DNA from: Acidimicrobiaceae bacterium
Lineage (GTDB): Bacteria > Actinomycetota > Acidimicrobiia > Acidimicrobiales > RAAP-2
Length of the DNA stretch: 64,000 bases
Reading direction: 5' to 3'
Assembly (NCBI GenBank): GCA_027355725.1
Contig: DAIEHI010000064.1
Location: 1-64,000, forward strand
Shown: positions 5,373 through 38,362 of the stretch, in pieces
Position numbering within the stretch: position 1 is the stretch's first letter
Layout of the letters: every line of letters starts with the position of its first letter
Notes under the pieces: generated by a model
Databases searched by the model: none
What the model was told of the DNA's origin: nothing
The model's input: the letters and a program-made list of their open reading frames with translations, nothing else
Program-made: the position numbers and the translations under genes

Positions 5373-5399
5373 TAACGACCCGTCGAGGCCCAAAATTGA
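5373..5399 (-). promoter_or_regulatory. Sigma-28-like promoter of flgN-flgK-flgL-fliW-csrA
   Basis: Read on the minus strand it is TCAATTTT-N11-GGTCGTTA, with the same spacing as the classical sigma-28 promoter (8 + 11 + 8) and close to six other copies in this window. The predicted transcription start falls close to the GTG of flgN at 5363, which suggests a leaderless transcript. The -35 box begins just past the stop of the preceding small membrane-protein gene. Confidence 0.72.
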
Positions 5400-5403
5400 G
5401 GGG

Positions 5404-5676
5404 CTAGAGCATCATTTCGTCGTCGTGTTTCCTGCTCCTCTCGACCCGTGCTTGCATGCGCGCGTAGCGCACCAGTACCCCGGTCGTGAGCCAGACCAGT
5501 GCACCGATCACGACCAGGAACTGGGCGAATCGGGTGAGGAACTGCAGTGCTGACAGGTTTTGGTGCAAAAAGGCGAGAAAGCTCGGGATCACGGCCACAA
5601 TCGACAGCGCGATCGCTATCGCCGGCCGGTATCCGCGAATATCGGCAATGAACGCCTGGTACGAGCGCGGTTTCAA
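5404..5676 (-). CDS. Small two-helix membrane protein of the flagellar operon
   Basis: I do not recognise a family for this 90-residue protein. Two hydrophobic stretches are clear: about residues 18-37 (PAIAIALSIVAVIPSFLAFL) and about 47-70 (LTRFAQFLVVIGALVWLTTG). The C-terminus is short, basic and then acidic (RKHDDEMML). It overlaps the end of the FlhF-like gene by four bases and ends just before the flgN promoter, so it is the last gene of the flhA transcript. In many flagellar loci the gene after flhF is flhG; this protein has no ATPase features and is not FlhG. A motor- or export-gate-associated membrane role is only a guess from position. Confidence 0.65.
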   Translation of the reverse strand: MKPRSYQAFIADIRGYRPAIAIALSIVAVIPSFLAFLHQNLSALQFLTRFAQFLVVIGALVWLTTGVLVRYARMQARVERSRKHDDEMML

Positions 5677-6827
5677 CCCTGCTCCATCATCGCTTCAAGT
5701 ATCAAGACCACCCACCTGAGCACTGAGGTCTGGTGCCCGTCGAAGAGCAGGATGGGCAGATCACCGAGCAACTCACCCGGTGAGGTGGTCTCAGCGACTC
5801 GATAAAGCGCCAGGACGTCGATGCAAGCGAGTTGACGTCGCCACGAGTGCACATCAGCGCGTTTCGCGGTCGCCGAGACCGTTGCGACCACGAGGTCGGG
5901 TTTCAAGCCGTCGATCCACGCGGCCACCTCGGCGAGCTCGCGCGAGCGAAGCGGCGCTTCGATCATCACCACGCTTGACCGCGATCCCCGCCGACGAGTG
6001 ACGCGCTGTCGGCTGGCACTCGTGCACTGCGCGTCGATCAGATCCGACGCGTCGAGGTCCATGAGTTCGATGAGACGAAGTCCGGCCGCTTGGACGTCGC
6101 GGCGCGTACCAACAACGACCACGAGCGAGCCCTCACCAGTAGGCAGCGCTGGGACCGGGGGCAGACGCGAGAAACTGCGCACCAAGCCGTCAAGGGTCTC
6201 TTCGGACTCTTCGGGCCAGAAATCACTTGGGACGCCGTAGTCCGCGACGAACGCCCTCAGTCCCGCGATCCTCTCTGGCCCGGGCTCGACTCGTGAAGGT
6301 GGCACCACGGCAAAGACCGCGGGGCGCACCACTGGCGGCGTCGCGTCGAGGTAGGGCTGAGCGGGCTCGCGTGGTCCCTCGCTCGTCGACGGCTCGGGGT
6401 TGAGCGCCGCTTGGGCTTGGGCGAGTACGTCGATGAACGCATTCTCGAGCACGTTCGTCGAAGCCAGTGACACCTCGTCTCTCGTTGACTCCACGAGATC
6501 CGAGAGCGAGACACTTCGCGCGGACGGCCACGTCACGTCGTCTTCAGCGTCGACGAACTTGGTGGGATCGTAGGACCACTCGGCGATGGTCGAACGCGCG
6601 TGCGCGGCACGTGCGACGTTGTCCGCGCGCGAGGGCTCGGGAGCCTCGATGCCGGCGACGAACACCTCTTTGGCAAAGAAGCCGAAGAGTCCCCCGCGAC
6701 GTGCCTTCCAGCACCGCACGGGTGCCGAGGTGCCCAGCTCCATTCGTGCCAGGCGCACCGCCTCCTCTGACGTTCGAGCTTCGAACTGCACGACGGGTCC
6801 CTTAGACTGTTGCGGCCACTTCACCAT
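5673..6827 (-). CDS. FlhF-like protein with degenerate GTPase domain
   Basis: The position after flhA and the N-terminus identify this 384-residue protein as FlhF-derived. Residues 13-58 (VVQFEARTSEEAVRLARMEL, then RRGGLFGFFAKEVFVA) match the FlhF N-terminal region. A linker rich in Ser, Ala and Pro follows, then a C-terminal domain laid out like the SRP-type GTPase of FlhF. Its nucleotide motifs are gone: the P-loop position reads GTRRDVQAA (240-248) with no GKT, the G3 position reads IEAPLRS (about 289-295), and the G4/G5 region that is normally TKLDET-SYG reads YRVAETTSPG (342-351). It overlaps flhA by 26 bases; GGGAG precedes the ATG. FlhF normally sets flagellar site and number by GTP-dependent dimerisation, which this protein should not be able to perform. 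Confidence 0.8.
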   Translation of the reverse strand: MVKWPQQSKGPVVQFEARTSEEAVRLARMELGTSAPVRCWKARRGGLFGFFAKEVFVAGIEAPEPSRADNVARAAHARSTIAEWSYDPTKFVDAEDDVTWPSARSVSLSDLVESTRDEVSLASTNVLENAFIDVLAQAQAALNPEPSTSEGPREPAQPYLDATPPVVRPAVFAVVPPSRVEPGPERIAGLRAFVADYGVPSDFWPEESEETLDGLVRSFSRLPPVPALPTGEGSLVVVVGTRRDVQAAGLRLIELMDLDASDLIDAQCTSASRQRVTRRRGSRSSVVMIEAPLRSRELAEVAAWIDGLKPDLVVATVSATAKRADVHSWRRQLACIDVLALYRVAETTSPGELLGDLPILLFDGHQTSVLRWVVLILEAMMEQG

Positions 6828-8898
6828 TCACGCTCCCTACCGTTGAAATTGACATTGTTGGTCCGATCTCTCCCACACCGATGACGCCCAAGCGCGGCAG
6901 GCTCGGCGCCAGAAGTCGCTTGAGCGCCGGTCGAAGTCGCGTCGCACACACGAGCACCGGGTTGTGGCCGCGCGCTTCGGATTCGCGAACGAAGTGTCCG
7001 ACGTTTCGAGCAATCTCCTCGGCCTCGTGGGCCGCGATGGCGAGACTTCGACGACCACGATCACTCACGCGAAGAGCACCTATGAGTCCTTGCTCGAGCA
7101 CGGGCGACAGGGTGATCGCCGAGAGGCGTCCGTCACGCTCGAACAGCGAGCCGATGGTCGTTGCGAGCGCGACGCGCGCCGCCTCAAGCAGGCTGTCGGC
7201 GTCTTTTTGTGGACCTCGAGCTTGCTCGGTGAGCGCCTCGACGATGCGCACGAGGTCACGCACCGGCACGCCTTCTTCGAGCAGCCCTCGAAGCACGACC
7301 TGCACGTCGCCGAGGGTGAGGTTCGCTGCGGCCATCTCTTCAAGTACGACGGGGTTCGAGGCCTTGATGGCGTCGAGCAGCAGTTTCGTGTCCTGGCGCG
7401 ACAAGAGCTCGCCGGCGTGTTCACGAACGATCTCTGCGAGGTGGGTCGTCACGACTGCAGAGCGGTCGACCACGGTCACCCCCGCCACCGCCGCCTCGTG
7501 ACTGAGGCCCACCGGGATCCACTTGGCGCGACCCCCAAAGGCCGGGTCGCGGGTGTCGAGACCGCTCAGTCCATCGAGGTTCTCGCCAATGGCGAGCAAC
7601 TTACCTCGCGGCGCCTGACCCCGAGCGACCTCAACGCCGTGCACACGAATGGCGTATTCGTCGTTGGGCAAGTCGAGATTGTCCCTCGTGTGCACGCGTG
7701 GCATCACGATCCCGAGCTCTTTGGCGACGTTTCGACGAAGCGCCCTCACGCGGTCAAGCAGGTCGCCGCCGCGTTCGCTCTGCACCAGGTCAATGAGGTC
7801 GACGCCCAACTCGAGACTGAGCGGCTCGACCGCCATGCCCGCGGCGAGGGTTTCGGCCGACTCATCGAGGACATCGGGCGTCGGCGCATCAAGCGCACCA
7901 CTCGCGCCACCTTGGACGTCCTTGGGCAGGCGTGAGCCGAAGTAGTAGACCAGTCCACCGACGATGACAAAGGGAACCTTCGGCAGTCCCGGCACCAGCG
8001 CCAAGGTCGCCATGACCACCCCGGTGGTTCGTACAATGCGCCGAAAGCGCGAGAGTTGCTGGACGACGTCGTGACCAAGGTCGTGCTCGGTAGCGGACCG
8101 GGTGACGATGATGCCCGTCGAGAGCGACAGCAACAACGCGGGCACCTGGGAGACGAGGCCGTCACCGACCGACAACAGACTGTAGGTGTCGATGGCGTTG
8201 GACATCGTCAAGTGGCGCTGGAGGATGCCGATCGCGAGCCCGCCGATCAGGTTCACCATGGTGATCACTATCGCCGCCACTGCGTCGCCTCGAACGAACT
8301 TCGACGCACCATCCATAGCTCCGTAGAAGTCGGCTTCGTCAGCGATTTCGCGCCGACGTCGCTGGGCTTCGAGTTCGCTGATCGCACCCGATGCCCGGTC
8401 GGCGTCGATGGCCATCTGCTTACCGGGCATGCCGTCGAGTGTGAAACGTGCGGCCACCTCAGCCACACGTCCTGAGCCCGAGGTGATGACCACGAACTGG
8501 ATGATGATCAGGATGAAGAAGATGACGAGGCCGACGACGATCGATCCGCCGACGACGAAGTGTCCAAAACTCGACACCACCACTCCGGCGTAGCCGTGCA
8601 GGAGGACCTGTCGGGTCACCGCCACGTTGAGCGCCAGGCGGAACATCGTCGCTATCAGCACCAACGTGGGAAAGACCGAGAAATCGAGGGGCCGCTTCAC
8701 CTGCATCGCCGTGAGCAGGACGAGCACCGATCCCGTGATGTTTCCCGTGATGAGCAGGTCGATCACGAACGTGGGCAGTGGGATGATCAAGACCACCACG
8801 ACCGCCACCACCGACAACGGCACGGCCATGTGGATGACGTGCTTCCATCGACCCTCTTGGGCGTTGGGTGAAATGCGGGGTCGACTGATCAGGGACAT
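6802..8898 (-). CDS. flhA: FlhA, flagellar export gate protein
   Basis: This 698-residue integral membrane protein is a core part of the flagellar type III export gate. The N-terminal half has about eight hydrophobic helices and the FHIPEP-family hallmark segment around RFTLDGMPGKQMAIDADRAS. The C-terminal half is the soluble FlhA-C domain that docks chaperone-substrate complexes. The frame is open 52 codons further upstream, but the ATG at 8898 is chosen because GGAG precedes it and because a sigma-28-like promoter at 8970-8996 lies within the upstream extension. It is first in the flhA-FlhF-like-membrane protein unit. Confidence 0.95.
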   Translation of the reverse strand: MSLISRPRISPNAQEGRWKHVIHMAVPLSVVAVVVVLIIPLPTFVIDLLITGNITGSVLVLLTAMQVKRPLDFSVFPTLVLIATMFRLALNVAVTRQVLLHGYAGVVVSSFGHFVVGGSIVVGLVIFFILIIIQFVVITSGSGRVAEVAARFTLDGMPGKQMAIDADRASGAISELEAQRRRREIADEADFYGAMDGASKFVRGDAVAAIVITMVNLIGGLAIGILQRHLTMSNAIDTYSLLSVGDGLVSQVPALLLSLSTGIIVTRSATEHDLGHDVVQQLSRFRRIVRTTGVVMATLALVPGLPKVPFVIVGGLVYYFGSRLPKDVQGGASGALDAPTPDVLDESAETLAAGMAVEPLSLELGVDLIDLVQSERGGDLLDRVRALRRNVAKELGIVMPRVHTRDNLDLPNDEYAIRVHGVEVARGQAPRGKLLAIGENLDGLSGLDTRDPAFGGRAKWIPVGLSHEAAVAGVTVVDRSAVVTTHLAEIVREHAGELLSRQDTKLLLDAIKASNPVVLEEMAAANLTLGDVQVVLRGLLEEGVPVRDLVRIVEALTEQARGPQKDADSLLEAARVALATTIGSLFERDGRLSAITLSPVLEQGLIGALRVSDRGRRSLAIAAHEAEEIARNVGHFVRESEARGHNPVLVCATRLRPALKRLLAPSLPRLGVIGVGEIGPTMSISTVGSVNGEVAATV

Positions 8899-8969
8899 TG
8901 AACTCCAGGACGTACCGTCCGCTCGTGTCCGTCCCTGGACGCTCTCTGGCCTTCCTAAGCCTGATGGTA

Positions 8970-8996
8970 TTACGACCACTGCGGGCTCAGAATTGA
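8970..8996 (-). promoter_or_regulatory. Sigma-28-like promoter of flhA
   Basis: On the minus strand it reads TCAATTCT-N11-GGTCGTAA, in the 205-base gap between flhB and flhA. The expected transcript starts near 8963, leaving a leader of about 65 bases before the flhA ATG. An export-gate gene under a sigma-28 promoter is unusual compared with the three-class hierarchy of enteric bacteria. Confidence 0.72.
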
Positions 8997-11225: not shown

Positions 11226-11226
11226 C

Positions 11227-12723: not shown

Positions 12724-13610
12724 CTCGCGACCTCCTCTTTGATCTCGCACGCCTTGTGGACACCGGAACTGCACATGTCGGCGAGCCCTATCAGCAGCCC
12801 CTCTACGCGAACCTCGAGGGGTCGTCCCTTGGGGTGTCCAAGACCCAGGCTGTCACCAACACGAAGCGTCAATAACTGCGCCGGCGTCGTGACGAAGCTC
12901 GGGAACTGAAAGACCAACTCGAGCGGTACCTCGTAGAGCCTGCGGCGGGTGTCGAGGGAGAATGAGTCGTCGCGCTCCTCGCCACTCGAGACCGATCGGG
13001 CCGCGAGCAAGTCGAACAGTAGTCGCACCATGGGATAGGGCAAGCACAGCACCGCTGGGCGCATTGGTCGTCCCGCGGTCGTCAGATCGAGTCGAATAGC
13101 CACGCACGTTTCTTGAGGACCCGCAATCGACACACTCTCCGCAGTCTCATCCTGGCTCTCGAGCAGTGGCGTAATGGTCTGGATTCGCGTCATCGTTTTG
13201 GCGAACTCGACGATCAGATCCGTGATGATCGGGGCGAGGAACGCCTTGTCGATCTCGCTCGGCGTGCGACCGGTGAAGTCATCTTCGCCCGTACCCGCGA
13301 GTCGCAGGTCGACAAACGCGAGCACCTCATCTGTCGGAATCACCAAGACGCCACGGCCCACGAGCGGCGCCATTGAAAAGGTGAAGAAATGCATGTTGTC
13401 GTGGAACTCTTCTGCGAGGTCGCGCCACATCACCTGATCGAGGGAGTTGAGATCAAACGTGCACGGTCGGTGCAGTATCGCGCTCAGTCGCTGGGTTGCC
13501 GCGCGGGTGAAACTCTCAGACAGTCCGTGGAGGGTCTGGAGGTCTTGGCGTTCTAGAAGATCGGTACGACGAAAGTCATGGTTGCGTACCTCTTTAGTGG
13601 TCGGGCTCAT
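12720..13610 (-). CDS. fliM: FliM, flagellar switch protein without the CheY-binding N-terminus
   Basis: This 296-residue C-ring protein has the family start of the middle domain (HDFRRTDLLERQDLQTLHGL) at about residues 10-30, the middle domain to about 205, and a C-terminal SpoA-type domain (VPLELVFQFPSFVTTPAQLL). What is missing is the N-terminal segment with the LSQxEIDALL motif that binds phosphorylated CheY and normally precedes DFRRPD by 30 or more residues. Only 22 bases separate this gene from motB, so there is no room for it unless the genes overlap. This agrees with the absence of chemotaxis genes here. Confidence 0.93.
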   Translation of the reverse strand: MSPTTKEVRNHDFRRTDLLERQDLQTLHGLSESFTRAATQRLSAILHRPCTFDLNSLDQVMWRDLAEEFHDNMHFFTFSMAPLVGRGVLVIPTDEVLAFVDLRLAGTGEDDFTGRTPSEIDKAFLAPIITDLIVEFAKTMTRIQTITPLLESQDETAESVSIAGPQETCVAIRLDLTTAGRPMRPAVLCLPYPMVRLLFDLLAARSVSSGEERDDSFSLDTRRRLYEVPLELVFQFPSFVTTPAQLLTLRVGDSLGLGHPKGRPLEVRVEGLLIGLADMCSSGVHKACEIKEEVAR

Positions 13611-13632
13611 GTTCTGCTACCTGTGCCCTCGC

Positions 13633-14385
13633 CTACGGAGCCAGCTTCGCGGTGGGACTCACCACGATGTTGACTCGCCGATTCTGCGCCTGACCGGCGG
13701 GCGTTGAGTTCGTTGCGACCGGATGGTACTGGCCGTAGCCGAGCAGGATCAGTTGCGTTGGTTTGACGCCGTCCCCGGTTGACATTCGAACGACCACCGA
13801 CGCCGCGCGCGCTGCTGAGAGTGCCCAGTTGTCCGCATACGGTCCCGACACGATGGGTCGATTGTCCGTGTAACCCGCCACTTCGATCGCATTGTCGTAC
13901 TTCTTCAACACTTGAGCCGATGCGTCCACGATCTTGTAACCGCTCGGTGACAGCTGCGCTGAGTTGGTGACGAAGAACGTCGAGTCCGCGACCAGTCCTT
14001 CGGTCAGTCCCGTCGGAGTGATCGCGAAAGTGACGTCCTGTAACAGCCCCTTCGCCTTCAATGCGGAACTCAGCGCTTTTTCGATCTTGACGAGCTGAGT
14101 GGATGGACTTGACTTCGAGTTGGTGACCGCCGTGGTGCTCCCGTGAGGAATGTGGAAGAGCTTCGAATGCTGCACAGACTGCTTGAACTCGCGGAACTTC
14201 GCCTGGTTGAGACTCGAGATCGCGTACAGGACAATGAACAACACCAAGAGCAGGGTGATCATGTCCGCGTAGGTCAGCAACCACCGCTCGGCGTTCTCTA
14301 CTTCGTGCTCGCCGTGGGTGTCCCCGCGACGACGATTCGCTCTGCGGTAGGGAGCTGTTCTGGTGCCGGGTTCCTTCACGCTCAC
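13633..14385 (-). CDS. motB: MotB, flagellar stator protein
   Basis: This 250-residue protein has a basic cytoplasmic N-terminus, one membrane helix starting at LLTYADMITLLLVLFIVLYA, and a periplasmic OmpA-like peptidoglycan-binding domain (VAGYTDNRPIV, then LSAARAASVVVRMSTGDGV and LLGYGQYHPVATN). Asp41 in the YAD motif is the proton-binding residue of the stator. It overlaps motA by four bases. The fliL gene that often follows motB is absent; fliM comes next. Confidence 0.95.
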   Translation of the reverse strand: MSVKEPGTRTAPYRRANRRRGDTHGEHEVENAERWLLTYADMITLLLVLFIVLYAISSLNQAKFREFKQSVQHSKLFHIPHGSTTAVTNSKSSPSTQLVKIEKALSSALKAKGLLQDVTFAITPTGLTEGLVADSTFFVTNSAQLSPSGYKIVDASAQVLKKYDNAIEVAGYTDNRPIVSGPYADNWALSAARAASVVVRMSTGDGVKPTQLILLGYGQYHPVATNSTPAGQAQNRRVNIVVSPTAKLAP

Positions 14386-15170
14386 GCCGCCGCATCCGGA
14401 GCCTCTCCCCCGTTAGCCCGAGTCGCGCTATCGCCTCGTTCTGACGGTGCGAGGAACGCATCCAGTCGGTCCCTGAGTTCTGTGGTCGATGCGTTCAATT
14501 GCATCGTGAGCAAGCCTTCGATCACCATCTCGCGATAGGTCACCTCTTCTTCTGACACCCGCTTCAACTTGTTCGAGATCGGGAGCCACACGGCGTTGGC
14601 GAGCAACACGCCCCAGAGTGTCGCGGTGAATGCGGCCGCGATGGCCGGACCGAGTTTGCCCGGCGAACTGAGTTGCCCGAGCACTCCAATGAGGCCAATG
14701 ATCGTGCCGAGAATCCCAAAGGTCGGCGAGAAGCCGGCCATGTCTGCAAAGAACTTGGTAGCCGCCTGATGGCGCACGCGAAGTCCGTTGATCTCGGCGG
14801 CCATCAACTCGTGCACCCGCTCGGGGTCAGAGGTCGAGATGATGAGCTGGATGCCCTTTTTCATGAACGAATCGTCGGTCTCGAGCTCTTCGAGCACCAA
14901 CGGATTCGAACGTGCTTCTTTGGCCATTGCGAGCAGTGCGTCGATGGTCTCTCGGATATTGGGGCCTTTTCCGGGCTTTAGTACCTTGAGCAGTGCCTTA
15001 GGGATCGTCTTTAGTCGGCGCACCTCGAAGCCCGCCATTGAAGCGCCGAGACTCCCCCCGACCACGAGTAGCAAAGAGGAGACCTTGATCAAGGAGCCGG
15101 GGTTGCCGCCGTCCATGGTCATGGCGCCCATCACCGCCATGATCGAGATGAGGATGCCTAACGGAGTCAT
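14382..15170 (-). CDS. motA: MotA, flagellar stator protein
   Basis: This 262-residue protein has four hydrophobic helices: two near the N-terminus (ILISIMAVMGAMTMDGGNPG and VSSLLLVVGGSLGASMAGFE) and two after residue 145 (ADMAGFSPTFGILGTIIGLI and AIAAAFTATLWGVLLANAVW). The conserved prolines of the torque-generating loops are present. The C-terminus (MVIEGLLTMQLNAS) is typical. MotA and MotB form the proton-driven stator. It overlaps flbD and motB by four bases each. Confidence 0.95.
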   Translation of the reverse strand: MTPLGILISIMAVMGAMTMDGGNPGSLIKVSSLLLVVGGSLGASMAGFEVRRLKTIPKALLKVLKPGKGPNIRETIDALLAMAKEARSNPLVLEELETDDSFMKKGIQLIISTSDPERVHELMAAEINGLRVRHQAATKFFADMAGFSPTFGILGTIIGLIGVLGQLSSPGKLGPAIAAAFTATLWGVLLANAVWLPISNKLKRVSEEEVTYREMVIEGLLTMQLNASTTELRDRLDAFLAPSERGDSATRANGGEAPDAAA

Positions 15171-15448
15171 GCGCCGTGCACCTGGGTCAACTGGGTGATC
15201 TCGCGGGTCATTGCGAGCGGTGAGGACTCCTCGTACTCACCGTCGGGGCGGTCGAAGACCCGACGCAGCAGCGCCGTCTTCTCGGCACGAATCATCTCGA
15301 CCACGGTCGCCGGGTCGTCGGCCAAGATCATGTGCCCGCCGTAGCGTAGATACACCGCTGATTGGCCCCCCGACGCGTGCTCGACGCGTTCGATGAGATC
15401 CTCATTCAGGTGCATCATCGCGCCGTCAAGTTTCTTCACCGCGATCAA
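15167..15448 (-). CDS. flbD: FlbD family flagellar protein
   Basis: This 93-residue protein follows the FlbD pattern: IAVKKLDGAMMHLNEDLIER, then VEHASGGQSAVYLRYGGHMI, then a helix LADDPATVVEMIRAEKTALL. FlbD is a small conserved protein found just before motA in Gram-positive flagellar operons; its biochemical role is not well defined. The start is TTG at 15448, with GGAGC five bases upstream. The reading frame is open 60 codons further, but that stretch is not FlbD-like and contains a sigma-28-like promoter at 15488-15514. Confidence 0.85.
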   Translation of the reverse strand: MIAVKKLDGAMMHLNEDLIERVEHASGGQSAVYLRYGGHMILADDPATVVEMIRAEKTALLRRVFDRPDGEYEESSPLAMTREITQLTQVHGA

Positions 15449-15487: not shown

Positions 15488-15514
15488 TAACGGACCAATC
15501 CGACGAAGAATTGA
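15488..15514 (-). promoter_or_regulatory. Sigma-28-like promoter of flbD-motA-motB-fliM to flhB
   Basis: On the minus strand it reads TCAATTCT-N11-GTCCGTTA. The transcript should start near 15481, about 34 bases before the flbD TTG. It would drive the motor, switch and export-gate genes. It lies in the 235-base gap between flgE and flbD. Confidence 0.72.
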
Positions 15515-26809: not shown

Positions 26810-27148
26810 CTACGCGCTCAGCGCATCGGTCAGGATCGTGAACTGGCCGCTCAAGGCGTTGTCCACGGTCTGGTTCGCGAGGTTGTTCTCGACCATGAAG
26901 GTCATTTCGGTCGAAAGTGACACGTTGTTGCCGCTCACCCCAGAGGGCAGGCCCTCAGGTGAGGCTTGGACGGTGGCGGTTCCGCCCGACTGGAGGGCCT
27001 GGGCGAGAGAGGACTCGAAGGTCACTTGATTTGCCTGGTAACCAGGGGTGTCCTGGTTGGCGATGTTGTTCGCAATGACTTGTTGTTGTTGGACAACGGC
27101 GTCGAGCGCGAACTGCAAGATACCAATAGCTTGGGTAGCACCAGCCAT
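26810..27148 (-). CDS. flgB: FlgB, proximal rod protein
   Basis: This 112-residue rod protein contains the conserved NNIANQDTPGYQANQVTFES segment and a C-terminal helix VENNLANQTVDNALSGQF. It is the first gene of the long flgB-flgC-fliE-fliF to flgE transcription unit. A sigma-28-like promoter lies 71-97 bases upstream of its ATG. Confidence 0.93.
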   Translation of the reverse strand: MAGATQAIGILQFALDAVVQQQQVIANNIANQDTPGYQANQVTFESSLAQALQSGGTATVQASPEGLPSGVSGNNVSLSTEMTFMVENNLANQTVDNALSGQFTILTDALSA

Positions 27149-27218
27149 GCCGCTCCTCTGCGCGATGGGAATGTAAGCCTTCCTGGCGCGATGCAGAGCG
27201 GTCCGTGCTCAGTTGTAG

Positions 27219-27245
27219 TTACGTCCCCCCCGCGAAGAGAGTTGA
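27219..27245 (-). promoter_or_regulatory. Sigma-28-like promoter of the flgB-to-flgE operon
   Basis: On the minus strand it reads TCAACTCT-N11-GGACGTAA, with a predicted transcript start near 27212 and a leader of about 64 bases. A G-run occupies part of the spacer. This promoter would drive the basal-body, export-ATPase and hook genes. Confidence 0.7.
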
Positions 27246-27309: not shown

Positions 27310-27600
27310 TCAGATTGGCGTATTGATGAAACGCGCGGGCAAGAGTTCCTGATGGGGATTCTTTGACTGGGAAATGGGGCGACGCTGATCGATTGCTTGC
27401 ATTCTCGTGAGCACCTCGAGGGCCAACTGGTCGTAACCCATTGCGAGCGAGCGGACTTGATCGAGTCGGTCTTCGGGTGGCGGTCCTTCGGGTCGTGCGG
27501 GCGGGTTGGGTGGTGACGCGCCGAGCTCGCTGCTCGCGCGCACCGCCGCCAGGTGGGCCGACGCCTCGGCTAGGTACTCATCCCAGGTTGGAGGCGACAT
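27310..27600 (-). CDS. Small protein after fliS, possible FliT-type chaperone
   Basis: This 96-residue protein is not recognised by sequence. The N-terminal and C-terminal thirds look helical (WDEYLAEASAHLAAVRASSE and LDQVRSLAMGYDQLALEVLT), separated by a Pro-rich stretch (about residues 33-45). In many flagellar loci the gene after fliS encodes the FliD chaperone FliT, a small helical protein, so position suggests that role. The start is uncertain: ATG at 27600 is used to limit overlap with fliS, while ATG at 27618 is also open. It is the end of the fliD-fliS unit. Confidence 0.6.
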   Translation of the reverse strand: MSPPTWDEYLAEASAHLAAVRASSELGASPPNPPARPEGPPPEDRLDQVRSLAMGYDQLALEVLTRMQAIDQRRPISQSKNPHQELLPARFINTPI

Positions 27601-27979
27601 TCGCTCGCTCACTCGCATTAACCGCCCGACGCCACGCCTCGTGGATGGGCCGCACCAGATCGGCGCACTCTTTCACCAACGCAACATCCTTTTCGATATT
27701 GGCCTTGATGAGGTGATTCTCCAAGAAGACGTAGATCGCAAGAAGTTCTTGCCCGCCGCTGAAACCCTCAGGGTCGAGTGAACTGCTGAGCACGCGCACG
27801 ATCTTTTGGGCGTGCTGGAGTGTCTCGTTCGCGGCCTCGAAGTTCGAGGCTTCAATGGCCAACTCGGCGCGCGCAATGTCGACCGCCAGTCGGTCGAAGA
27901 GCATGACGAGGAGCTGGGGCTGGTTCGCGGTCTGCACCGCTTGGCTCTGGTAGGCCGAGGCTGAGTTGGAGAGCGACAT
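27578..27979 (-). CDS. fliS: FliS, flagellin export chaperone
   Basis: This 133-residue helical protein has the FliS pattern: a Y-containing N-terminus (SASAYQSQAVQTANQPQLLV, then MLFDRLAVDIARAELAI) followed by further helices (FEAANETLQHAQKIVRVLSS and LLAIYVFLENHLIKANIEKD). FliS binds the C-terminal helix of flagellin and prevents premature polymerisation. In some bacteria it also forms part of the FliW-CsrA-flagellin circuit. It follows fliD after nine bases. Confidence 0.92.
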   Translation of the reverse strand: MSLSNSASAYQSQAVQTANQPQLLVMLFDRLAVDIARAELAIEASNFEAANETLQHAQKIVRVLSSSLDPEGFSGGQELLAIYVFLENHLIKANIEKDVALVKECADLVRPIHEAWRRAVNASERANVASNLG

Positions 27980-30683: not shown

Positions 30684-31514
30684 TTACGGCAACAGCTTCT
30701 GAGCGAGGCTGGGAAGCTGACTCGCCTGGGCCAGAATCGACACACCCGCTTGCTCAAGGATCTGCTGTGACGTGAACTGTGACGTCATCTGCGCCACGTT
30801 GACGTCCACCAGGTTCGCGTGAGCTGACTGGATGTTCTGCTGAGCCGTGGTGAGGTTCGCCGACACCGCGGTGATCTCGTTCTGAGAAGCACCGACGCTC
30901 GCAGCGATGGTCGCCACTGTGCCGATTGCCGTCTGAACTGCAGCCATGGCCGCCTGAGCACCGGTGGTGGTCGTCAGGCTCAGTGCCGTCGAACCCAGCA
31001 AAGCGGTCGAACCAGCGCCGCTGATCGCGACCGAGATCTGGTCAACCGTCTGGTTGTACGGACCCACTTGGAAGGTGCCAGCGTACGAGCCGTTCAACAG
31101 TGAGGTGCCACCGTAGTTCGTACTCGAAGCAATCTGGTCCAACTGTGACGTCAACGAGGCAAACTCAGCCTGCGCTGCGGCCTGGGATGACGCCGTCTGG
31201 GAACCACCGTTGGCTGCCTGAGTCGCCAGGGTGTTCATAGTCTGAAGGATGGTTGCCTCCTGGCCGAGTGCTCCCTGCGCCGTTTGGAGCACGGAGACCG
31301 CGTCCTGGGCGTTGCTGATTGCCTGGGTGTAGCCATTGGCTTCCATCTGCAGGGACTGACCAACGACGTATCCCGCAGGATTGTCAGCCGCTGATTGGAT
31401 CTGCATACCTGACGAGAGTTGGCCAACTGTCTTGGTCAAGCTCGCGCTGGTCTGGTCCAGGTTGTTGTACGCAGCAACTGCAGCTGCGTTGTAATTGATT
31501 AGAAGTCCCGACAT
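30684..31514 (-). CDS. fliC: Flagellin
   Basis: This compact 276-residue flagellin has the N-terminal D0/D1 region (LINYNAAAVAAYNNLDQTSA, LSSGMQIQSAADNPAGYV, where SAADNPAG is the hallmark) and the C-terminal counterpart (VNVAQMTSQFTSQQILEQAG, ending LAQASQLPSLAQKLL). There is almost no D2/D3 insertion. It has its own sigma-28-like promoter and a structured leader that carries candidate CsrA sites. The ATG is preceded by AGGAGGA at eight bases. A large glycosyltransferase gene lies just upstream, which suggests that the Ser/Thr-rich D1 surface is glycosylated. Confidence 0.96.
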   Translation of the reverse strand: MSGLLINYNAAAVAAYNNLDQTSASLTKTVGQLSSGMQIQSAADNPAGYVVGQSLQMEANGYTQAISNAQDAVSVLQTAQGALGQEATILQTMNTLATQAANGGSQTASSQAAAQAEFASLTSQLDQIASSTNYGGTSLLNGSYAGTFQVGPYNQTVDQISVAISGAGSTALLGSTALSLTTTTGAQAAMAAVQTAIGTVATIAASVGASQNEITAVSANLTTAQQNIQSAHANLVDVNVAQMTSQFTSQQILEQAGVSILAQASQLPSLAQKLLP

Positions 31515-31522: not shown

Positions 31523-31580
31523 TCCTCCTGATGACATAAATACTTCCCTAAGGAAGTTGGAGCTTCCGTGCTCCAACTTC
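31523..31580 (-). promoter_or_regulatory. fliC leader with candidate CsrA-binding hairpin and Shine-Dalgarno site
   Basis: On the mRNA strand an 11-bp perfect stem (GAAGTTGGAGC / GCTCCAACTTC, arms 31570-31580 and 31553-31563) presents the hexaloop ACGGAA, a GGA loop of the kind CsrA prefers. The second GGA site is the Shine-Dalgarno itself, AGGAGGA at 31523-31529. An overlapping alternative hairpin, CTTCC/GGAAG (31543-31556), could compete with the first. In Bacillus the hag leader is built the same way, with one hairpin GGA and one overlapping the ribosome site. The csrA and fliW genes are in this locus. Confidence 0.65.
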
Positions 31581-31582: not shown

Positions 31583-31609
31583 CTACGGACCACCTAGGAC
31601 GAGAGTTGA
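31583..31609 (-). promoter_or_regulatory. Sigma-28-like promoter of fliC
   Basis: On the minus strand it reads TCAACTCT-N11-GTCCGTAG. The transcript should begin around 31576-31578, essentially at the base of the leader hairpin, so the flagellin mRNA would carry a 5'-terminal stem-loop. Confidence 0.7.
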
Positions 31610-31629
31610 GAGGGTCGTCGATGAAATAT

Positions 31630-34515
31630 CTACTTTGTTGCCGCCATCGTCACCTCGTCCTGCTCGACACTGGCTTCTTTGTTGTAGTGGAGTCGTTCGA
31701 TGCGACTCACGCGCTCTCGCATCGTTCGTACCGAGGACGTCGAAAACAGCCGCATCGCGCGTTCCTTGGACCGACGTCCCTTGAAGCGACGAAGTGTGAC
31801 ATCCTCAGCCGCGAAGCGCATTGCGCGCGCCGCCTGATCCACGTCAGGCTGCGCCCAGTACTCGCTGGCGCTGTAGTAGCTCTCGCTCTCGGGGACCCTC
31901 TCAATGGTGACGGGCACCTGGTAACTGTCACGCTCGCCAAGGAGTTCAGCACCACACGAATGTGCACTCACGATTGGCGCAATGCCCCAACTCATGGCCC
32001 GCGAGAGACCAAGACCCGTACCATCGCTTCGATGCAATGACACGAAACACGAGACTTCGGGCTTCCAGTCGTACACGAGCCTCCCCGTCGCTCCTTCTGC
32101 GTTGTCGACCACTTCGATGTCCGCGCGACCCCCAACGGCCTCCACGAGCGCCGCGTGCTCCAACGGATAGCGCGACGCGTGCGCGGTCTCGATGACCAAG
32201 CGCACGTTCTCACCTTCTGTGAAGGCCCGACGGTACGCCGTAATCACGTCGAGGGGGTTCTGGCGAAGGAAGCCGGCAGCGTAATCAACACTCGTTAGGA
32301 ACACCGTCCCCTCGAACTCACGAGGCGCGACGAGTGAACTGTGCAGTGTCCCGAGCGGCAATGACATCTTGAAGACGTCACGATCGCTCGCGCTCTGCAG
32401 TGCCTGGGCGGCGAAGCGTCCAGGCGTCCAGATCTCTCGAACCATCTGCGCGGTCACACCCATCAAGGTCGTTGGCGTATCGAATTCCGAGCGCCACACA
32501 CCAATCGTGTAGCGACTCTCGAATCCGGCGGTGCCGCAATCCATTGCGTAATTGCCCATGTCCTCGGGCGCGATGACGAACAGACTTGTGCCATAGGGCT
32601 GGTCACCGGCGTCCACGTGCGACCACGCAACCGGGCCCGTTCTGCCATCAGAGTTGTAGTCGGTGGTTGAAACGCCGTAGCCGCTCGCCACGAGCGCTCT
32701 CGCGATGGTTCGCGCGATCTCGGCATCTATCGAGGTGCCGGTGAAGGAACCCACGATATTCACGCCGCCACGAAGGGCCGGCACACGAAGCGACGTCAGT
32801 GACACGCGTTCACGTGCGGCACGTACCACCTTGGTGGGAATCGGGGCCGTGGGCGTGGCATCGGTTGCGGGCGCCTCACGCTCGACGTGTTGCGCCTCGA
32901 GCAGACCCGGGGCGAAACGGGCGATTTGCTCGCTGGACTCGCTCAGGCTCTTCTCGTCGAGCAGCCCTCGTGCCTCGTGCACTGCTCGAACGACCGCGTG
33001 ATCAGCGAACGCCCCAAACGCAACTGCTGCAGCGAGCACTCGAACTCGAGGGTCCGAGTCTGCGTCGTTGGCGATGGCCACCAACGGGCACGCGCTCGCC
33101 AGACCCCGTTCTCGAAGGCGCGAAGACCAGACGAGCGCACGCTCGATTCCCAAGCGCGGACCAATGCGACTCGCAACCGCGAGGGTCTCCAAGCGGTCTG
33201 GGAAACGCTCATAGACGCCTTCGAGCACTCCGTCGGCCTCATTCACGTTCAGATGGATCATCTGTCCAAGCGCCGGAATGACGTCATCGACGCTGAGCGC
33301 ACCGGCGATCTCTGATGGGTTACGCCCCTCTTTCACCAGCCAGCCCACCAATTCTGCGAGGTCGGCCTTTATCACGCCTTCGGTTCGTACCGATTCGAGC
33401 ACGAGATCGGCCGCCTCACCGAAGCGGCCAAGAGAAGCGAGACCGTGGGCGCGCACGCCGGTGAGCAGATGCAGATCGTGCTCGAAGGCGTCATCATCGC
33501 GACCACGCAAGGGAAGTCTCGCAAGGATCGCCAGGCCCACTTCAACGTCGCCTTTGGCTATACGTGCGCGACCTTCGGCGATGTCTGCGGTGATCTGGTT
33601 GGTCGAGATCTTTCTCAGCTCGAGCACTTCGTCGAGGGCTTCGTCGTAGCGCCCGAGGTCGGTCAGAAGCGTTATCAAAACGGTGAGGACCGTTCGTGAG
33701 AAGTAGCCTTGCGACGAATACGTCGAAGCCTCTCGAAGGACGTCGACCGCCTCTTCTAATTGGCCCGCCATCACGAGTGATCGGCCGTAATTCAATGTGG
33801 CGTATGGCCTATTCGCCTCATCCTCATCGAGCGCGGCCTTGGCTATCTTCAGATTTCGCTGAGCCTTGTTCTTCGACTTCATCACCTGGGCGAGATAGCC
33901 GCGGTGGATGATGCGAGCCTCACTCCAGTACACGCGACGCAGATCGCGTGCGGAACCGTCGGCGGGCAACAACTGCTCATGCAGGCTGTAGTGCCAGAGG
34001 GCGGCGGTGCGCCGCGTGACGCGAACCGACATGTGCGCCATTCCCAGGCTGCCGACCCCTTCAAGGTTCTCGACGGCGACCATATAGGCCTCGACGTCCG
34101 CACTCGCGCCACGCAGCAAGGTACTCATCGCCTCAGGGTCGCATTGAAAGATCTCGTCGGCGTCAAGGGTGAGCACCCATTCGGCGCTCGCGTGCGCTAG
34201 CGCTGCGTTGCGAGCTCGGGCGAAGTCGTTGTCCCAGTAGCCCTCGATCACCTTGGCGCCCGCTTCGCGTGCTATCTCCATGGTGCGGTCCGTTGAGCCC
34301 GTGTCATAGACAATGATCTCGTTGGCGACATTCGCTACCGACTCGAGACACGCTTGGAGCATCTCTTCTTCATCTTTTACGATGAGACACACCGACAAGA
34401 GCGGCGTGCCTGTGTCTTCTCCTCGATGCTCCTCGATCTCACTTACGACGTGGTCACGCGGAGTCGAATTCATCTTGAACTCGTTCACCAACAGCTCCTC
34501 GATGGTGTGACCCAT
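31630..34515 (-). CDS. Large TPR glycosyltransferase, probable flagellin glycosyltransferase
   Basis: This 961-residue protein has three parts. Residues about 38-270 form a GT2 family domain of the WaaE type (LSVCLIVKDEEEMLQACLES, VYDTGSTDRTMEIAREAG, then LTLDADEIF with the DxD metal site). Residues about 240-560 are TPR-like helical repeats. From about 590 a second, GT-B type domain follows (GVNIVGSFTGTSIDAEIART) with a GT4-like donor site (SLHRSDGTGLGLSRAMSWGI). It lies just upstream of fliC on the same strand and has its own sigma-28-like promoter, which links it to flagellin modification. The start is uncertain: ATG at 34473 is an alternative. The acceptor and sugar are inferred, not seen. 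Confidence 0.85.
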   Translation of the reverse strand: MGHTIEELLVNEFKMNSTPRDHVVSEIEEHRGEDTGTPLLSVCLIVKDEEEMLQACLESVANVANEIIVYDTGSTDRTMEIAREAGAKVIEGYWDNDFARARNAALAHASAEWVLTLDADEIFQCDPEAMSTLLRGASADVEAYMVAVENLEGVGSLGMAHMSVRVTRRTAALWHYSLHEQLLPADGSARDLRRVYWSEARIIHRGYLAQVMKSKNKAQRNLKIAKAALDEDEANRPYATLNYGRSLVMAGQLEEAVDVLREASTYSSQGYFSRTVLTVLITLLTDLGRYDEALDEVLELRKISTNQITADIAEGRARIAKGDVEVGLAILARLPLRGRDDDAFEHDLHLLTGVRAHGLASLGRFGEAADLVLESVRTEGVIKADLAELVGWLVKEGRNPSEIAGALSVDDVIPALGQMIHLNVNEADGVLEGVYERFPDRLETLAVASRIGPRLGIERALVWSSRLRERGLASACPLVAIANDADSDPRVRVLAAAVAFGAFADHAVVRAVHEARGLLDEKSLSESSEQIARFAPGLLEAQHVEREAPATDATPTAPIPTKVVRAARERVSLTSLRVPALRGGVNIVGSFTGTSIDAEIARTIARALVASGYGVSTTDYNSDGRTGPVAWSHVDAGDQPYGTSLFVIAPEDMGNYAMDCGTAGFESRYTIGVWRSEFDTPTTLMGVTAQMVREIWTPGRFAAQALQSASDRDVFKMSLPLGTLHSSLVAPREFEGTVFLTSVDYAAGFLRQNPLDVITAYRRAFTEGENVRLVIETAHASRYPLEHAALVEAVGGRADIEVVDNAEGATGRLVYDWKPEVSCFVSLHRSDGTGLGLSRAMSWGIAPIVSAHSCGAELLGERDSYQVPVTIERVPESESYYSASEYWAQPDVDQAARAMRFAAEDVTLRRFKGRRSKERAMRLFSTSSVRTMRERVSRIERLHYNKEASVEQDEVTMAATK

Positions 34516-35000
34516 GACGAGGTGTTGAGCCCCCGTGTCTGAAGAAACCGTGTCCTCAACCCCTCCATAGTCCTGAGCGTCCAGTCGCGATCAAGGAGAG
34601 GCCGGGCCACTCTTGGTGTCACGTCACACGAAGGCCGAGCGGTCGCGGTGTGTCGCATTTTGGACTGACCAACCGTGAGGTTGACCGCGATACACCGGTA
34701 CCCGACATTCGATACAACTTTTCGCTCAACGTGGTCGTTGGCCGTTAACTCTGTAATACCATCTTGACGAGGGGAATTCCTTAAAAGAACTACGTGAGCG
34801 CGGGATCTGAACGTCGAGACGCGACTGTTGACGTGCACAGCGTGTCGACGACGCACACGCGTCGCAAAGACCACCGCCGTGGCGCCCCCCTCAAAAACTT
34901 CAGTAGTCACTTAGGCCATTACGGACCATTCGTGAAGATAATTGAGAGCATTATCACAAGTTTGTGGAATTTTTACGTCACGGCCGTATCATTGCGGTTA
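34516..35000. other. Intergenic region with divergent promoters
   Basis: This 485-base gap separates the glycosyltransferase from the RsiG-like gene. It holds a sigma-28-like promoter at 34919-34945 pointing left and a -10-like TATCAT at 34987-34992 pointing right. If the left promoter is used, the glycosyltransferase mRNA has a leader of about 395 bases. A GTG-started frame of 141 codons runs through this leader, from 34910 to 34485, but its composition looks non-coding. I see no riboswitch or RNA gene that I can name. Confidence 0.45.
34919..34945 (-). promoter_or_regulatory. Sigma-28-like promoter upstream of the glycosyltransferase
   Basis: On the minus strand it reads TCAATTAT-N11-GTCCGTAA, one of the closest matches to the consensus derived in this window. 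It points toward the glycosyltransferase, about 400 bases away, with no other convincing gene between. Confidence 0.65.
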
Positions 35001-35534: not shown

Positions 35535-35603
35535 CCGCGACGATTCCCTGTGCTGAGGGAGTGATGCAGCAGCAATGCTTCCCCGTCAATGGCGGATCAC
35601 TGC

Positions 35604-36701
35604 TCAAGAACCCTGAGGTTCCCAACTGCTCACGACGTCGGCCACGTGGCTTCGCTCGTCATCGCTCAGTGACTCTCGAACGGGGATGGACAACACCACG
35701 TTCGAGAGCGCTTCTGCGTTCTCGCATCGAGCGCTCATACCCAAATCCTCCACTACCGGATGGCTCGACAGCGCGTAGGGGTAATACGCGCGAGCTTCGA
35801 CCTCGTGCGCCAGAGCCCACGCCTGCAGGTCGTCGCGGTCAGCTTGGCTCGCGAGTCGCAGTGTGAACTGATGGAAGCAACTCGCGCTCGTCTCGTCATT
35901 GCGAACTGGCAGCGTGATCGCGTCATTGTGAATCGTGTCGTGGTAGAACGCCGCATTGGAACGCCGACCCGCCGTGACGTCGTCGAGGGAATCGAGTTGG
36001 ACTCGAAGAATGGCGGCCTGGAGGTCGGTCATGCGAGCGTTGTAGCCGACCATTTTGTGTCGATACGTCTCGATCGACCCGTGGCTTCTGAGGAGCCGTA
36101 CCCGCTCAGCGATTGAAGGATCATCAGTCGCGACGAGCCCACCTTCACCACAGGCGATGTTCTTGCTGCCATAGAACGAGAACACTGCGGTGCCCGAACT
36201 GCCGACCTCACCCGTGTTGGCGTCACTGGCGCCGATGGCCTGACACGCGTCTTCGAGCACCGCAATGTTGTACCTGCTCGCAACGTCACGAATGGCGGCC
36301 AAGTCCACTGGACGTCCGTAGAGGTGAACGGGCAGGATCGCCTTGGTGCGACTGGTGATGAGCGATTCAATGCCCGCGATATCCATGTTCGCGCTGGCCA
36401 GGTCAACGTCGGCGAAGATCGGCGTCGCACCGAGTTGGATGATCGGCTCGATCGTGCCAATGAAGGAAAACGAGGTCGTGATCACCTCGTCTCCCGGGCC
36501 CACCCCCATCGCCGCGAGCGCCAGGGTGATCGCCACGGTCCCGTTAGATACGGCAATACATTCAACCCCGCCAAGTCGCTTGGCGAATGCCAATTCCACG
36601 TCGTGGGTCTCAGCGCCCATGGCCAACTGACCCGATCGAACGACGCGAAGGATCGCCTCTTCCTCACCCGCTCCGATCATCAATTTTGAAATTCCAATCA
36701 C
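35604..36701 (-). CDS. DegT/DnrJ/EryC1 family sugar aminotransferase
   Basis: This 365-residue PLP enzyme transfers an amino group to a keto-sugar nucleotide. The PLP lysine motif is SFYGSKNIACGEGGLVATDD; other family marks are AVSNGTVAITLALAAMGVGP, VITTSFSFIGT and ILPVHLYGRPVDLAAI. The start is GTG at 36701, preceded by GGAGGA seven bases away and overlapping the stop of the acetyltransferase as GTGA. It is the last gene of a three-gene sugar cassette under a sigma-28-like promoter. By analogy to WlbC/WbpE it may aminate C3 of an oxidised UDP-GlcNAc; the substrate is inferred. Confidence 0.88.
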   Translation of the reverse strand: MIGISKLMIGAGEEEAILRVVRSGQLAMGAETHDVELAFAKRLGGVECIAVSNGTVAITLALAAMGVGPGDEVITTSFSFIGTIEPIIQLGATPIFADVDLASANMDIAGIESLITSRTKAILPVHLYGRPVDLAAIRDVASRYNIAVLEDACQAIGASDANTGEVGSSGTAVFSFYGSKNIACGEGGLVATDDPSIAERVRLLRSHGSIETYRHKMVGYNARMTDLQAAILRVQLDSLDDVTAGRRSNAAFYHDTIHNDAITLPVRNDETSASCFHQFTLRLASQADRDDLQAWALAHEVEARAYYPYALSSHPVVEDLGMSARCENAEALSNVVLSIPVRESLSDDERSHVADVVSSWEPQGS

Positions 36702-37282
36702 GGCGTCCTCCAGCCACACGTTTGACATTCACCTTCAAGGCGCTCACCGCAGTAGCACACCCAGCCAATCTGGCGCGCCGGATTACCCACCACGAGTGCG
36801 TGAGACGCGACGGGACGCGTCACGACGCTTCCCGCCCCGACCAGTGCCCAGGCGCCGACGTTCGTGCACACCACGACCGAGCCCGCGCCGATCGCCGCGC
36901 CGTCTTCAATATGGCAACCCGTTGCGTGCCAGTCACTCGCTGCGAGCGGCGTGCCATCTGGCCCCACGGCCCGTGGGTGCAGGTCGTTGGTGAGCACCAC
37001 GTGCGGGCCGACGAAGACACCTTTGCCTATGGTCGCGGGCGCGTAGATCTCCGATCCGTTTTGTATCTTCGAGCCCGCGCCGATCGGCACGGACTCGTCA
37101 ATGAAGCAGCCCTTGCCAATGATGGTGTCGTCGCCGACGTTCGCGCCCGTTCGAACCTGGCTGAAATGCCAGACTTTCACACCTCGTCCGAGTAGTGCCC
37201 CGTCTTCGATGATCGCGGTCGCGGCCACGAAGGCGGGACCCTTCGTCCCAACAACTCGCGCCTCATCATGATTCTCAGCCAT
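36698..37282 (-). CDS. Hexapeptide-repeat sugar N-acetyltransferase (WlbB/WbpD-like)
   Basis: This 194-residue left-handed beta-helix acyltransferase shows many hexapeptide turns (FVAATAIIEDGALLGRGVKV, then VGDDTIIGKGCFIDESVPIG). The catalytic-type histidine is in VLTNDLHPRAVGP. The C-terminus GNPARQIGWVCYCGERLEGE with CxC-x7-CxxC is typical of WlbB-type enzymes and looks like a small zinc-binding tail. The ATG at 37282 is chosen since the upstream 99 residues are Arg-rich and not conserved. It overlaps the dehydrogenase by eight bases. It likely acetylates the amino sugar made by the downstream aminotransferase. Confidence 0.88.
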   Translation of the reverse strand: MAENHDEARVVGTKGPAFVAATAIIEDGALLGRGVKVWHFSQVRTGANVGDDTIIGKGCFIDESVPIGAGSKIQNGSEIYAPATIGKGVFVGPHVVLTNDLHPRAVGPDGTPLAASDWHATGCHIEDGAAIGAGSVVVCTNVGAWALVGAGSVVTRPVASHALVVGNPARQIGWVCYCGERLEGECQTCGWRTP

Positions 37283-38285
37283 TCGAAGTCGCGACCAGCC
37301 TCGATTGAGACTCTCGAACCAGGTGCGTTGCGTGTTGGCACGCCGCGAGCGCCGCGAGCGCCTCATCGGGTGAAATAGCGAGCTCACCCTGACCTCGCAC
37401 GCACGTCGCAAAGTGCAGTAGTTCACGCATGAGCGGCTCACCTTGAAGAACCCACAGCGGCCTTGCCTGTGCGGTCTGCCACACGGCGCTGAAATGTGAC
37501 GTCGGACCCTCGACCGGATCGATTCGCCCCTCATAGACGGTGACCTCTTGTCGCACGTAATCGACGTCGACGAAGCCACCGGTGCCGGTCACACTCAATC
37601 GACGACTCTTCAGCGGTGTGATCCAATTTGTCTCAACTGCGGCCGCCACGTCAGCGTAGGAAAGAAGGACGAATGCGAAATCCTCTTGATGATTGCCAGG
37701 CAGCGAACCCCCGGTCGCGCCCAGCACCACCGGTTCACTACCGGTGAGCAGTTGGATGATGTCAATGTCGTGGATGCCCAAGTCAGCAATGACGTTGGTT
37801 GCGGGAAGGGCAGGTCTGGCGACTCCGACGCGCCGCGCAGAGACCGAGAGCACCCTGCCGAGGTCGCCGCCCGTGATCAACGCGCGCAGTGCGTCGATGG
37901 CTGGATTGAACCGTTCGACGTGGCCAATGAGCAAGTGCGCACTGCTCTTTCGCGCCACGTCGACCAACTCTTGAGCGCTGGCGACATCCGGAGCAATGGG
38001 CTTTTCGAGCAGTACATGGATACCCTCGTGAAGAAACAACTTGGCTTGGGGCACGTGGGCGGAGGTGGGGCTCGCAATCACCACCGCATCAAGGTCATGG
38101 TTGAGCAGGTCCTCTGGTTCACTGTGCGCCCAGATTCCCGCCGCTCGTTCAACCGTCGTATCGAGCTCAGCGATCCTCGGATCCGCAATGGCCACCACAT
38201 CAAATTCCACGAGACCTCGAAGGACTCGAAGGTGCTGTCGTCCCATGACGCCCAAGCCAACCACGCCTACCCTGATTGGCTTCAT
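37275..38285 (-). CDS. Gfo/Idh/MocA family sugar dehydrogenase (WlbA/WbpB-like)
   Basis: This 336-residue NAD-dependent oxidoreductase starts IRVGVVGLGVMGRQHLRVLR. The family EKP motif is in HVLLEKPIAPDVASAQEL, and GHVERFNPAIDALRALI follows. With the acetyltransferase and aminotransferase it matches three steps of the UDP-2,3-diacetamido-glucuronate route (3-oxidation, amination, acetylation); the UDP-GlcNAc 6-dehydrogenase of that route is not in this window. The ATG at 38285 follows AGAGGA. A sigma-28-like promoter 51 bases upstream connects the cassette to the flagellar regulon. Confidence 0.88.
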   Translation of the reverse strand: MKPIRVGVVGLGVMGRQHLRVLRGLVEFDVVAIADPRIAELDTTVERAAGIWAHSEPEDLLNHDLDAVVIASPTSAHVPQAKLFLHEGIHVLLEKPIAPDVASAQELVDVARKSSAHLLIGHVERFNPAIDALRALITGGDLGRVLSVSARRVGVARPALPATNVIADLGIHDIDIIQLLTGSEPVVLGATGGSLPGNHQEDFAFVLLSYADVAAAVETNWITPLKSRRLSVTGTGGFVDVDYVRQEVTVYEGRIDPVEGPTSHFSAVWQTAQARPLWVLQGEPLMRELLHFATCVRGQGELAISPDEALAALAACQHATHLVRESQSRLVATSNG

Positions 38286-38335
38286 AGTCCTCTGGCTCCT
38301 CGCTATCAACGTTTACGGATACCGTCTGGTTGCTA

Positions 38336-38362
38336 TTACGGACCAAAACCGTCATCAATTGA
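38336..38362 (-). promoter_or_regulatory. Sigma-28-like promoter of the sugar cassette
   Basis: On the minus strand it reads TCAATTGA-N11-GTCCGTAA, with a predicted transcript start near 38329 and a leader of about 44 bases. It implies that sugar synthesis is switched on with flagellin. Confidence 0.68.

Follow-up and report, generated by a model that had tools for sequence, protein, structure and literature searches.

A diverged FliA-like sigma factor and a matching promoter box probably form a single-tier flagellar regulon in an Acidimicrobiaceae bacterium

The window analysed here, 64,000 nucleotides of contig DAIEHI010000064.1 from the Acidimicrobiaceae assembly GCA_027355725.1, carries on its minus strand, between 1.7 and 38.3 kb, a single flagellar cluster with glycosylation genes behind it, and seven similar two-part boxes stand at the heads of the gene units found there. 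These seven sites are very probably the promoters of one single-tier flagellar regulon, which would be read by a diverged, FliA-like sigma factor whose gene lies at the cluster edge. In this group of soil bacteria, a master switch and all of its target sites thus appear to have been rewritten together. To our knowledge, the promoter specificity of FliA (sigma-28) is usually taken to be the same in all bacteria, and the target searches in the literature rely on the -10 sequence GCCGATAA. A lineage in which both sides have seemingly changed, with relatives keeping the old pair, offers a way to test, by residue and box swaps, how a sigma factor and its target set adapt to each other; it also means that consensus searches can miss flagellar regulons, and it may be a case in which flagellar assembly is ordered after transcription. 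A preliminary description of this DNA had pointed out the seven sites; it had not covered the divergence of the sigma factor, the leaderless starts or the hairpins of CsrA type that are described below.

All seven sites lie on the minus strand and have the layout 8-11-8 (-35 box, spacer, -10 box), at the coordinates and with the spacing that the preliminary description had given. They precede the units of flgN (box 1, 5373-5399, TCAATTTT-N11-GGTCGTTA), flhA (box 2, 8970-8996, TCAATTCT-N11-GGTCGTAA), flbD with motor and export genes (box 3, 15488-15514, TCAATTCT-N11-GTCCGTTA), flgB (box 4, 27219-27245, TCAACTCT-N11-GGACGTAA), fliC (box 5, 31583-31609, TCAACTCT-N11-GTCCGTAG), a glycosyltransferase (box 6, 34919-34945, TCAATTAT-N11-GTCCGTAA) and a sugar cassette (box 7, 38336-38362, TCAATTGA-N11-GTCCGTAA). 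The consensus first proposed fits most of them and has to be loosened at two, as box 4 has GGACGTAA, with A instead of Y, and box 7 has TCAATTGA, with A at -35 position 8. When the window was scanned on both strands with a matrix built from the two boxes only, leaving the spacer out, the seven sites took ranks 1-7 among about 128,000 positions, with leave-one-out scores of 18.6-25.0 bits. The best position outside the sites reached 14.3 bits (full matrix). In 200 simulated 64-kb sequences of the same dinucleotide make-up the mean maximum was 14.0, and one score across all 200 exceeded 23. The seven sites are real, and they are the sole high-scoring occurrences in the window.

Genome-wide, the pattern of the preliminary description has eight perfect matches, five of them at window sites, two on contig C213 and one within an open reading frame (ORF) on contig C30; the reversed pattern, used as a control over the whole genome, gave 0 matches. 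The C30 match and one-mismatch matches on C101, C118 and C136 overlap ORFs or directly adjoin them, have no flagellar context and were judged to be chance. Contig C213 (L041, 5263 bases) was rejected as a second flagellin-glycosylation cluster. Its sequence shares 94% identity with the glycosyltransferase locus of the relative G020 and 75-76% with the window, which is why we take it for a misbinned contig in the assembly of the window's genome (G000).

Conservation in related genomes, which had been suggested as a check, bears the boxes out. The same genes carry them in eight relatives that share the cluster order (G020, G035, G334, G335, G336, G337, G296 and G564) and whose FliA is 70-98% identical to that of the window. 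Together with the window's genome, this gives 54 boxes across nine genomes at orthologous genes: ahead of flgN (all nine genomes), flhA, flbD, flgB, fliC and the glycosyltransferase gene wherever the fetched contigs reach, and ahead of the sugar cassette in three genomes, where box 7 is kept in G020 and G035. The consensus over the 54 boxes is C-TCAAYTNT-N10-GGKHCGTWR, with T1, A3, A4, T6, C23, G24 and T25 invariant. Among distant members, identity amounts to 0.80-0.94 in the -35 box and 0.71-0.84 in the -10 box, against 0.27-0.41 in the spacer and 0.21-0.47 in the flanks. G564, which was not among the matrix sources and was scanned after the matrix had been fixed, has boxes ahead of flgN, flhA, flbD, flgB and fliC that score 20.6-28.9, a weak box (10.1) at the exact expected place ahead of the glycosyltransferase gene, and an extra box (20.2) ahead of a glycosyltransferase of about 1,000 residues that is inserted in the cluster. 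A gene of this size, with glycosyltransferase-like and methyltransferase-like parts, lies between the ORF after fliS and flgB in G564 (L231:10001-13228) and in G337 (L205:7537-10662), with a box of its own in both (20.2 and 13.5 bits).

That the boxes are promoters is well supported by this footprint, in which the boxes are conserved and the spacers free, and by a fixed geometry to the start codons. The GTG of flgN stands exactly 9 nt past the box in 9/9 genomes, and the GTG of the ORF at the glycosyltransferase box exactly 8 nt past it, again in 9/9. Since such a distance leaves no room for a ribosome-binding site, both transcripts are probably leaderless or nearly so, which would place the transcription start immediately downstream of the box. 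Leaders of 40-70 nt with a Shine-Dalgarno-like sequence are present in the other units. Two conserved half-elements at fixed spacing could also be a protein footprint, namely the operator of a transcription factor that acts on sigma-70-type promoters. However, all 18 leaderless cases have the start codon exactly 8 or 9 nt on, and the box therefore occupies the position that the -10 must take; on inspection, moreover, the two elements form neither a palindrome nor a direct repeat, so that we consider an operator extremely improbable.

The canonical promoter of the sigma-28 class (FliA/SigD/WhiG) is TAAA-N15-GCCGATAA (PMC2859248, PMC8325347), and the preliminary description had equated the boxes with it. 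The arrangement indeed agrees: as in that class, two elements stand ahead of flagellar genes at identical spacing, all 54 boxes show T-C/A-A-A followed by N15 and the 8-mer, the TCAA core is close to TAAA, and, in the same register, position 1 (G) and the last three positions (T, W, R) of the -10 match the canonical box. The -10 sequence, in contrast, differs. It reads GGKHCGTWR, with an invariant C-G where the canonical box has G-A, so that the fixed CGT is found in place of the canonical core, and the fixed part of the -35 (TCAAYT) is longer. The boxes have 3-7 mismatches in 12 to TAAA-N15-GCCGATAA, most often 5, and a published search for this box type allowed two (PMC8325347). The geometry and the T-W-R end, together with the flagellar genes and the location of fliA within the cluster, would fit the initial view of ordinary sigma-28 promoters with a slightly degenerate -10, but the mismatch count, the invariance of C23 and G24 opposite a canonical G and A, and the change to K and R of the sigma factor residues R91 and S92, which 35 canonical homologues hold invariant, make this view very improbable.

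The presumed reader of the box is a sigma factor of 263 residues that is encoded on the plus strand at 815-1606. Sigma-70 domains 2, 3 and 4 are present and region 1.1 is absent; Pfam Sigma70_r2 and r4 exceed their cut-offs, r3 reaches 23.6 versus a cut-off of 25.3, and the closest solved relatives of the protein are WhiG and FliA. The best library model is NCBIfam FliA_WhiG (TIGR02479), yet the score of 163 bits lies below the cut-off of 189.6, and in a tree the protein sits on its own long branch (3.75), as a sister to FliA/WhiG or attracted there, with unsure placement. It is therefore named FliA-like here and not counted as a member of that subfamily. It was aligned with 35 FliA/WhiG homologues, most of which come from this order and which include E. 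coli FliA, a solved Streptomyces WhiG and a further solved FliA; of 85 family-invariant positions, 16 are switched and fixed in the diverged FliA, including W88I, V89L, R91K, S92R and E218R (E. coli numbering). All diverged members have DILPKR and RSRV instead of the promoter-reading motifs DW(V/I)PRS and ESRV; W88, R91, S92 and E218 are invariant in the 35 canonical rows. Residue R91 of E. coli sigma-28 was reportedly found by Koo et al. in 2009 to read the extended -10, and position 218 would lie within the -35 helix, aligned with R584 of sigma-70.

The sigma gene adjoins csrA-fliW-flgL-flgK in G000, G020, G334, G336, G337, G296 and G564, and in G035 and G335 the sigma gene or the cluster is divided between contigs. 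No other sigma gene lies in the flagellar cluster, and the gene is linked to the cluster in all seven genomes that have both on one contig; a genome search for a second FliA-type sigma found none closer, the next best being 27% identical; and among the 395 class and 396 phylum genomes scanned, more than one strict box per genome occurs only where the diverged FliA is present. For these reasons the diverged FliA is the best candidate for the reader of the box, and likely is this reader. One could also think of a different sigma factor, such as an extracytoplasmic function (ECF) sigma, with FliA as a bystander or acting elsewhere. ECF promoters show an AAC...CGT spacing that is resembled by the AAY-N17-CGT of the box, the invariant A3 A4 ... 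C23 G24 T25 looks ECF-like, and the canonical GCCGATAA is absent. Nevertheless, this alternative is quite improbable given the constant linkage of fliA as sole sigma gene of the cluster and the low identity of the next best sigma in a genome search that covered the FliA type, and given that FliA/WhiG-bearing relatives have FliA-type boxes at the same genes, that the spacing is that of sigma-28, and that the readout residues of FliA have changed. The genome G296 belongs to another family (f32) and has, on C13, the diverged FliA and boxes without a second FliA-type sigma; in this case, the cluster may have been transferred as a whole, together with its own sigma factor.

Relatives with an ordinary FliA/WhiG-type sigma have GCCGAT-type boxes ahead of some of the same genes. 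Such canonical-type boxes were found in the flagellated relatives G338-G341, whose sigmas are 38-39% identical to the window sigma: in G338 TCAG-N15-GCCGATGA at flgB and TCAG-N15-GCCGATAG at flhA, in G339 TCAG-N15-GCCGATAG at flhA, in G340 TCAT-N15-GCCGATAG at flhA, TCAC-N15-GCCGATTG at flgB and TCAA-N15-GCCGATCG at fliC, and in G341 TAAA-N15-GCCGACAA at flgB. As these boxes also stand at early genes, FliA-type control of early genes probably predates the switch to the present box, and the switch probably altered sequence, not architecture. The sigma factor and all promoters would have shifted together from an ancestral TCAN-N15-GCCGATNR to the present consensus, with the sigma-28 spacing kept.

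Several observations count against this joint switch of sigma factor and boxes. Canonical-type boxes are few in the relatives, about seven, and they are themselves 1-4 bases off TAAA-N15-GCCGATAA; the sigma genes of these relatives may lie outside their flagellar clusters. The long branch outside canonical FliA/WhiG may indicate a different group-3 sigma that took over. Furthermore, the strict pattern missed one diverged-FliA genome (G614/G337), which bears variant boxes, and the link between sigma and box may be an association that goes back to one evolutionary event.

Early (flgB, flhA, flbD-motA), late and glycosylation genes all carry the box, as had been noticed before, and the near one-step control suggested on this basis fits the finding that every flagellar unit is boxed except fliA itself; seven genomes were compared upstream of fliA, and none has a box there. 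The gene arrangement is therefore most naturally read as a single transcriptional tier. The fliA gene, with its own unrelated upstream region, would be the input point of the regulon, and FliA activation would turn on the basal-body, export-gate, motor, hook, filament and glycosylation units simultaneously. No FlgM match (PF04316) over the cut-off was found in eight diverged-FliA genomes with a model that is weak, being over the cut-off in 3/14 controls; FlgM is missing from actinobacterial classes without FlgFG (PMC10746217). As no FlgM was found, these bacteria probably lack the enteric hook checkpoint, and the order would be set by CsrA-FliW. The chemoreceptor domain PF00015 was not found in the whole genomes G000, G020, G035, G334, G337 and G296 despite their flagellar gene set. 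The diverged-FliA genomes searched apparently have flagella without chemotaxis, and other actinobacteria of this kind are listed in PMC10746217.

Single-tier control by a FliA-family sigma appears to have a precedent, as the flagellar genes of Actinoplanes are, according to a statement in PMC8325347, transcribed by WhiG-like sigma factors. By that description, and not by sequence, the flagellar cluster of Actinoplanes missouriensis resembles the present one in standing under a FliA-family sigma, but A. missouriensis is a sporulating zoospore former. In the Rubrobacter WhiG-RsiG regulon (PMC8325347), an actinobacterial FliA/WhiG-family sigma likewise directs a surface-appendage cluster; unlike here, the box is canonical, the appendages are type IV pili, and an anti-sigma responsive to cyclic di-GMP is involved.

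Since the leaders of fliC, flgB and flhA open with GGA-loop hairpins (8/8, 8/8 and 9/9 genomes) and csrA and fliW are part of the regulon, the timing is probably post-transcriptional. Both genes belong to the flgN unit on the minus strand: csrA at 1708-1977 (89 residues, Pfam CsrA 7.9e-20) and fliW at 1993-2583 (Pfam FliW 9.9e-20). The fliC leader starts with a hairpin at 31553-31580 (minus strand, 8/8 genomes), the hexaloop of which reads ACGGAA, AAGGAA, ACGGAT or AAGGAT, i.e. ANGGAN, the loop bound by CsrA-family proteins (PMC7652899). A GGAGGA Shine-Dalgarno lies downstream, and the combination of ANGGA in the hairpin loop with GGA at the Shine-Dalgarno is found in 8/8 genomes. The fliC stem is paired in 84% of cells versus 25-46% for slid versions, with compensatory changes in two pairs. 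The flhA leader has two hairpins at 8948-8961 and 8927-8940 (9/9 genomes, the second with the loop AGGGAC in all nine), and the flgB leader has them at 27196-27210 (8/8) and 27177-27187 (6/8), all on the minus strand. It is a good prediction from these sequences that CsrA orders assembly: it would hold the fliC, flgB and flhA transcripts via their 5' GGA hairpins until FliW relieves the hold.

The CsrA-FliW checkpoint on Bacillus subtilis hag and Campylobacter flaA (PMC7652899, PMC4894983) has the same parts, namely CsrA, FliW, ANGGA hairpins in flagellin leaders and a further GGA at the Shine-Dalgarno. Unlike in that checkpoint, GGA hairpins are here found at the head of further units as well, two at the export-gate unit (flhA) and one or two at the rod/basal-body unit (flgB); Campylobacter CsrA binds other flagellar mRNAs too (PMC7652899, PMC4894983). 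If the hairpins were another leader element or fortuitous, control would be purely transcriptional. The binding of CsrA is predicted here, and the flgB stems, which are nearly invariant and therefore silent on covariation, do not covary. Still, we regard this explanation as unlikely, because fliC (8/8) and flhA (9/9) have loops of the ANGGAN type, or close to it, in a constant position, pairs of such hairpins occur in 1.2% of random 66-mers, the flbD and gfo leaders are nearly free of hairpins (two weak ones among eleven leaders), and csrA and fliW lie inside the regulon. Returning to CsrA-based ordering, the full proposal would be a regulon-wide rewrite, in which the sigma specificity and at least six unit promoters changed together, the pair became insulated from ordinary FliA/WhiG, and a single tier is ordered via CsrA-FliW on basal-body, export-gate and flagellin mRNAs; we see the chances of this complete scheme as evenly balanced. 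In the canonical-type relative G341, two strong GGA-loop hairpins, GTGACCGC-ATGGA-GCGGTCAC and TGGCCC-AGGGA-GGGCCA, follow right after the flgB box (L213, about 1585-1631). As GGA hairpins thus occur also in some canonical-type relatives, they are not part of the switch.

Each box heads the first gene of a unit, and the gene assignments of the preliminary description hold with two refinements. The unit of box 1 is flgN-flgK-flgL-fliW-csrA, with flgN at 4881-5363 (Pfam FlgN 2.1e-4, below cut-off) starting at the GTG 9 nt past the box. Box 2 precedes flhA (6802-8898, Pfam FHIPEP 1.5e-235) and two genes without an assigned function. The early start of the long ORF, where the DNA is conserved in close relatives, was considered for flhA and rejected; judged from the leader sequence, the start is most likely the ATG at 8898, so that the unit was named correctly and the start is moved. 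Box 3 heads flbD-motA-(motB?)-fliM-fliN-fliO-fliP-fliQ-fliR-flhB, where flbD (15167-15448, Pfam FlbD 6.6e-6, gene order conserved) has a TTG start. Behind box 4, the rod, basal-body and hook unit comprises flgB-flgC-fliE-fliF-fliG-fliH-fliI-fliJ-transglycosylase-fliK-flgD-flgE and begins with flgB at 26810-27148 (Pfam Flg_bb_rod). Box 5 belongs to fliC-fliD-fliS-orf, with the flagellin gene fliC at 30684-31514 (Pfam Flagellin_N 4e-33, Flagellin_C 5.7e-12). Box 6 had been assigned to a glycosyltransferase, which is right for the unit, but the box sits 8 nt ahead of the GTG of a small ORF (34485-34910), which precedes the GT2-TPR glycosyltransferase gene (31630-34515, Pfam Glycos_transf_2 1.3e-19), probably for flagellin glycosylation. 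The sugar cassette behind box 7 consists of genes for a Gfo/Idh/MocA oxidoreductase (37275-38285, Pfam match, start set by the leader sequence), a hexapeptide transferase and a DegT aminotransferase. All of these genes are on the minus strand.

Some genes of the cluster are without a convincing Pfam match, namely the two conserved genes between flhA and flgN (5404-5676 and 5673-6827), a conserved gene after fliS (27310-27618), and the gene at the place of motB (13607-14461), which diverges fast (28-60% identity in relatives). The small ORF at 34485-34910 looks like a decayed remnant of the N-terminal part of a second glycosyltransferase domain; in G335, G336, G337, G296 and G564 this domain is open.

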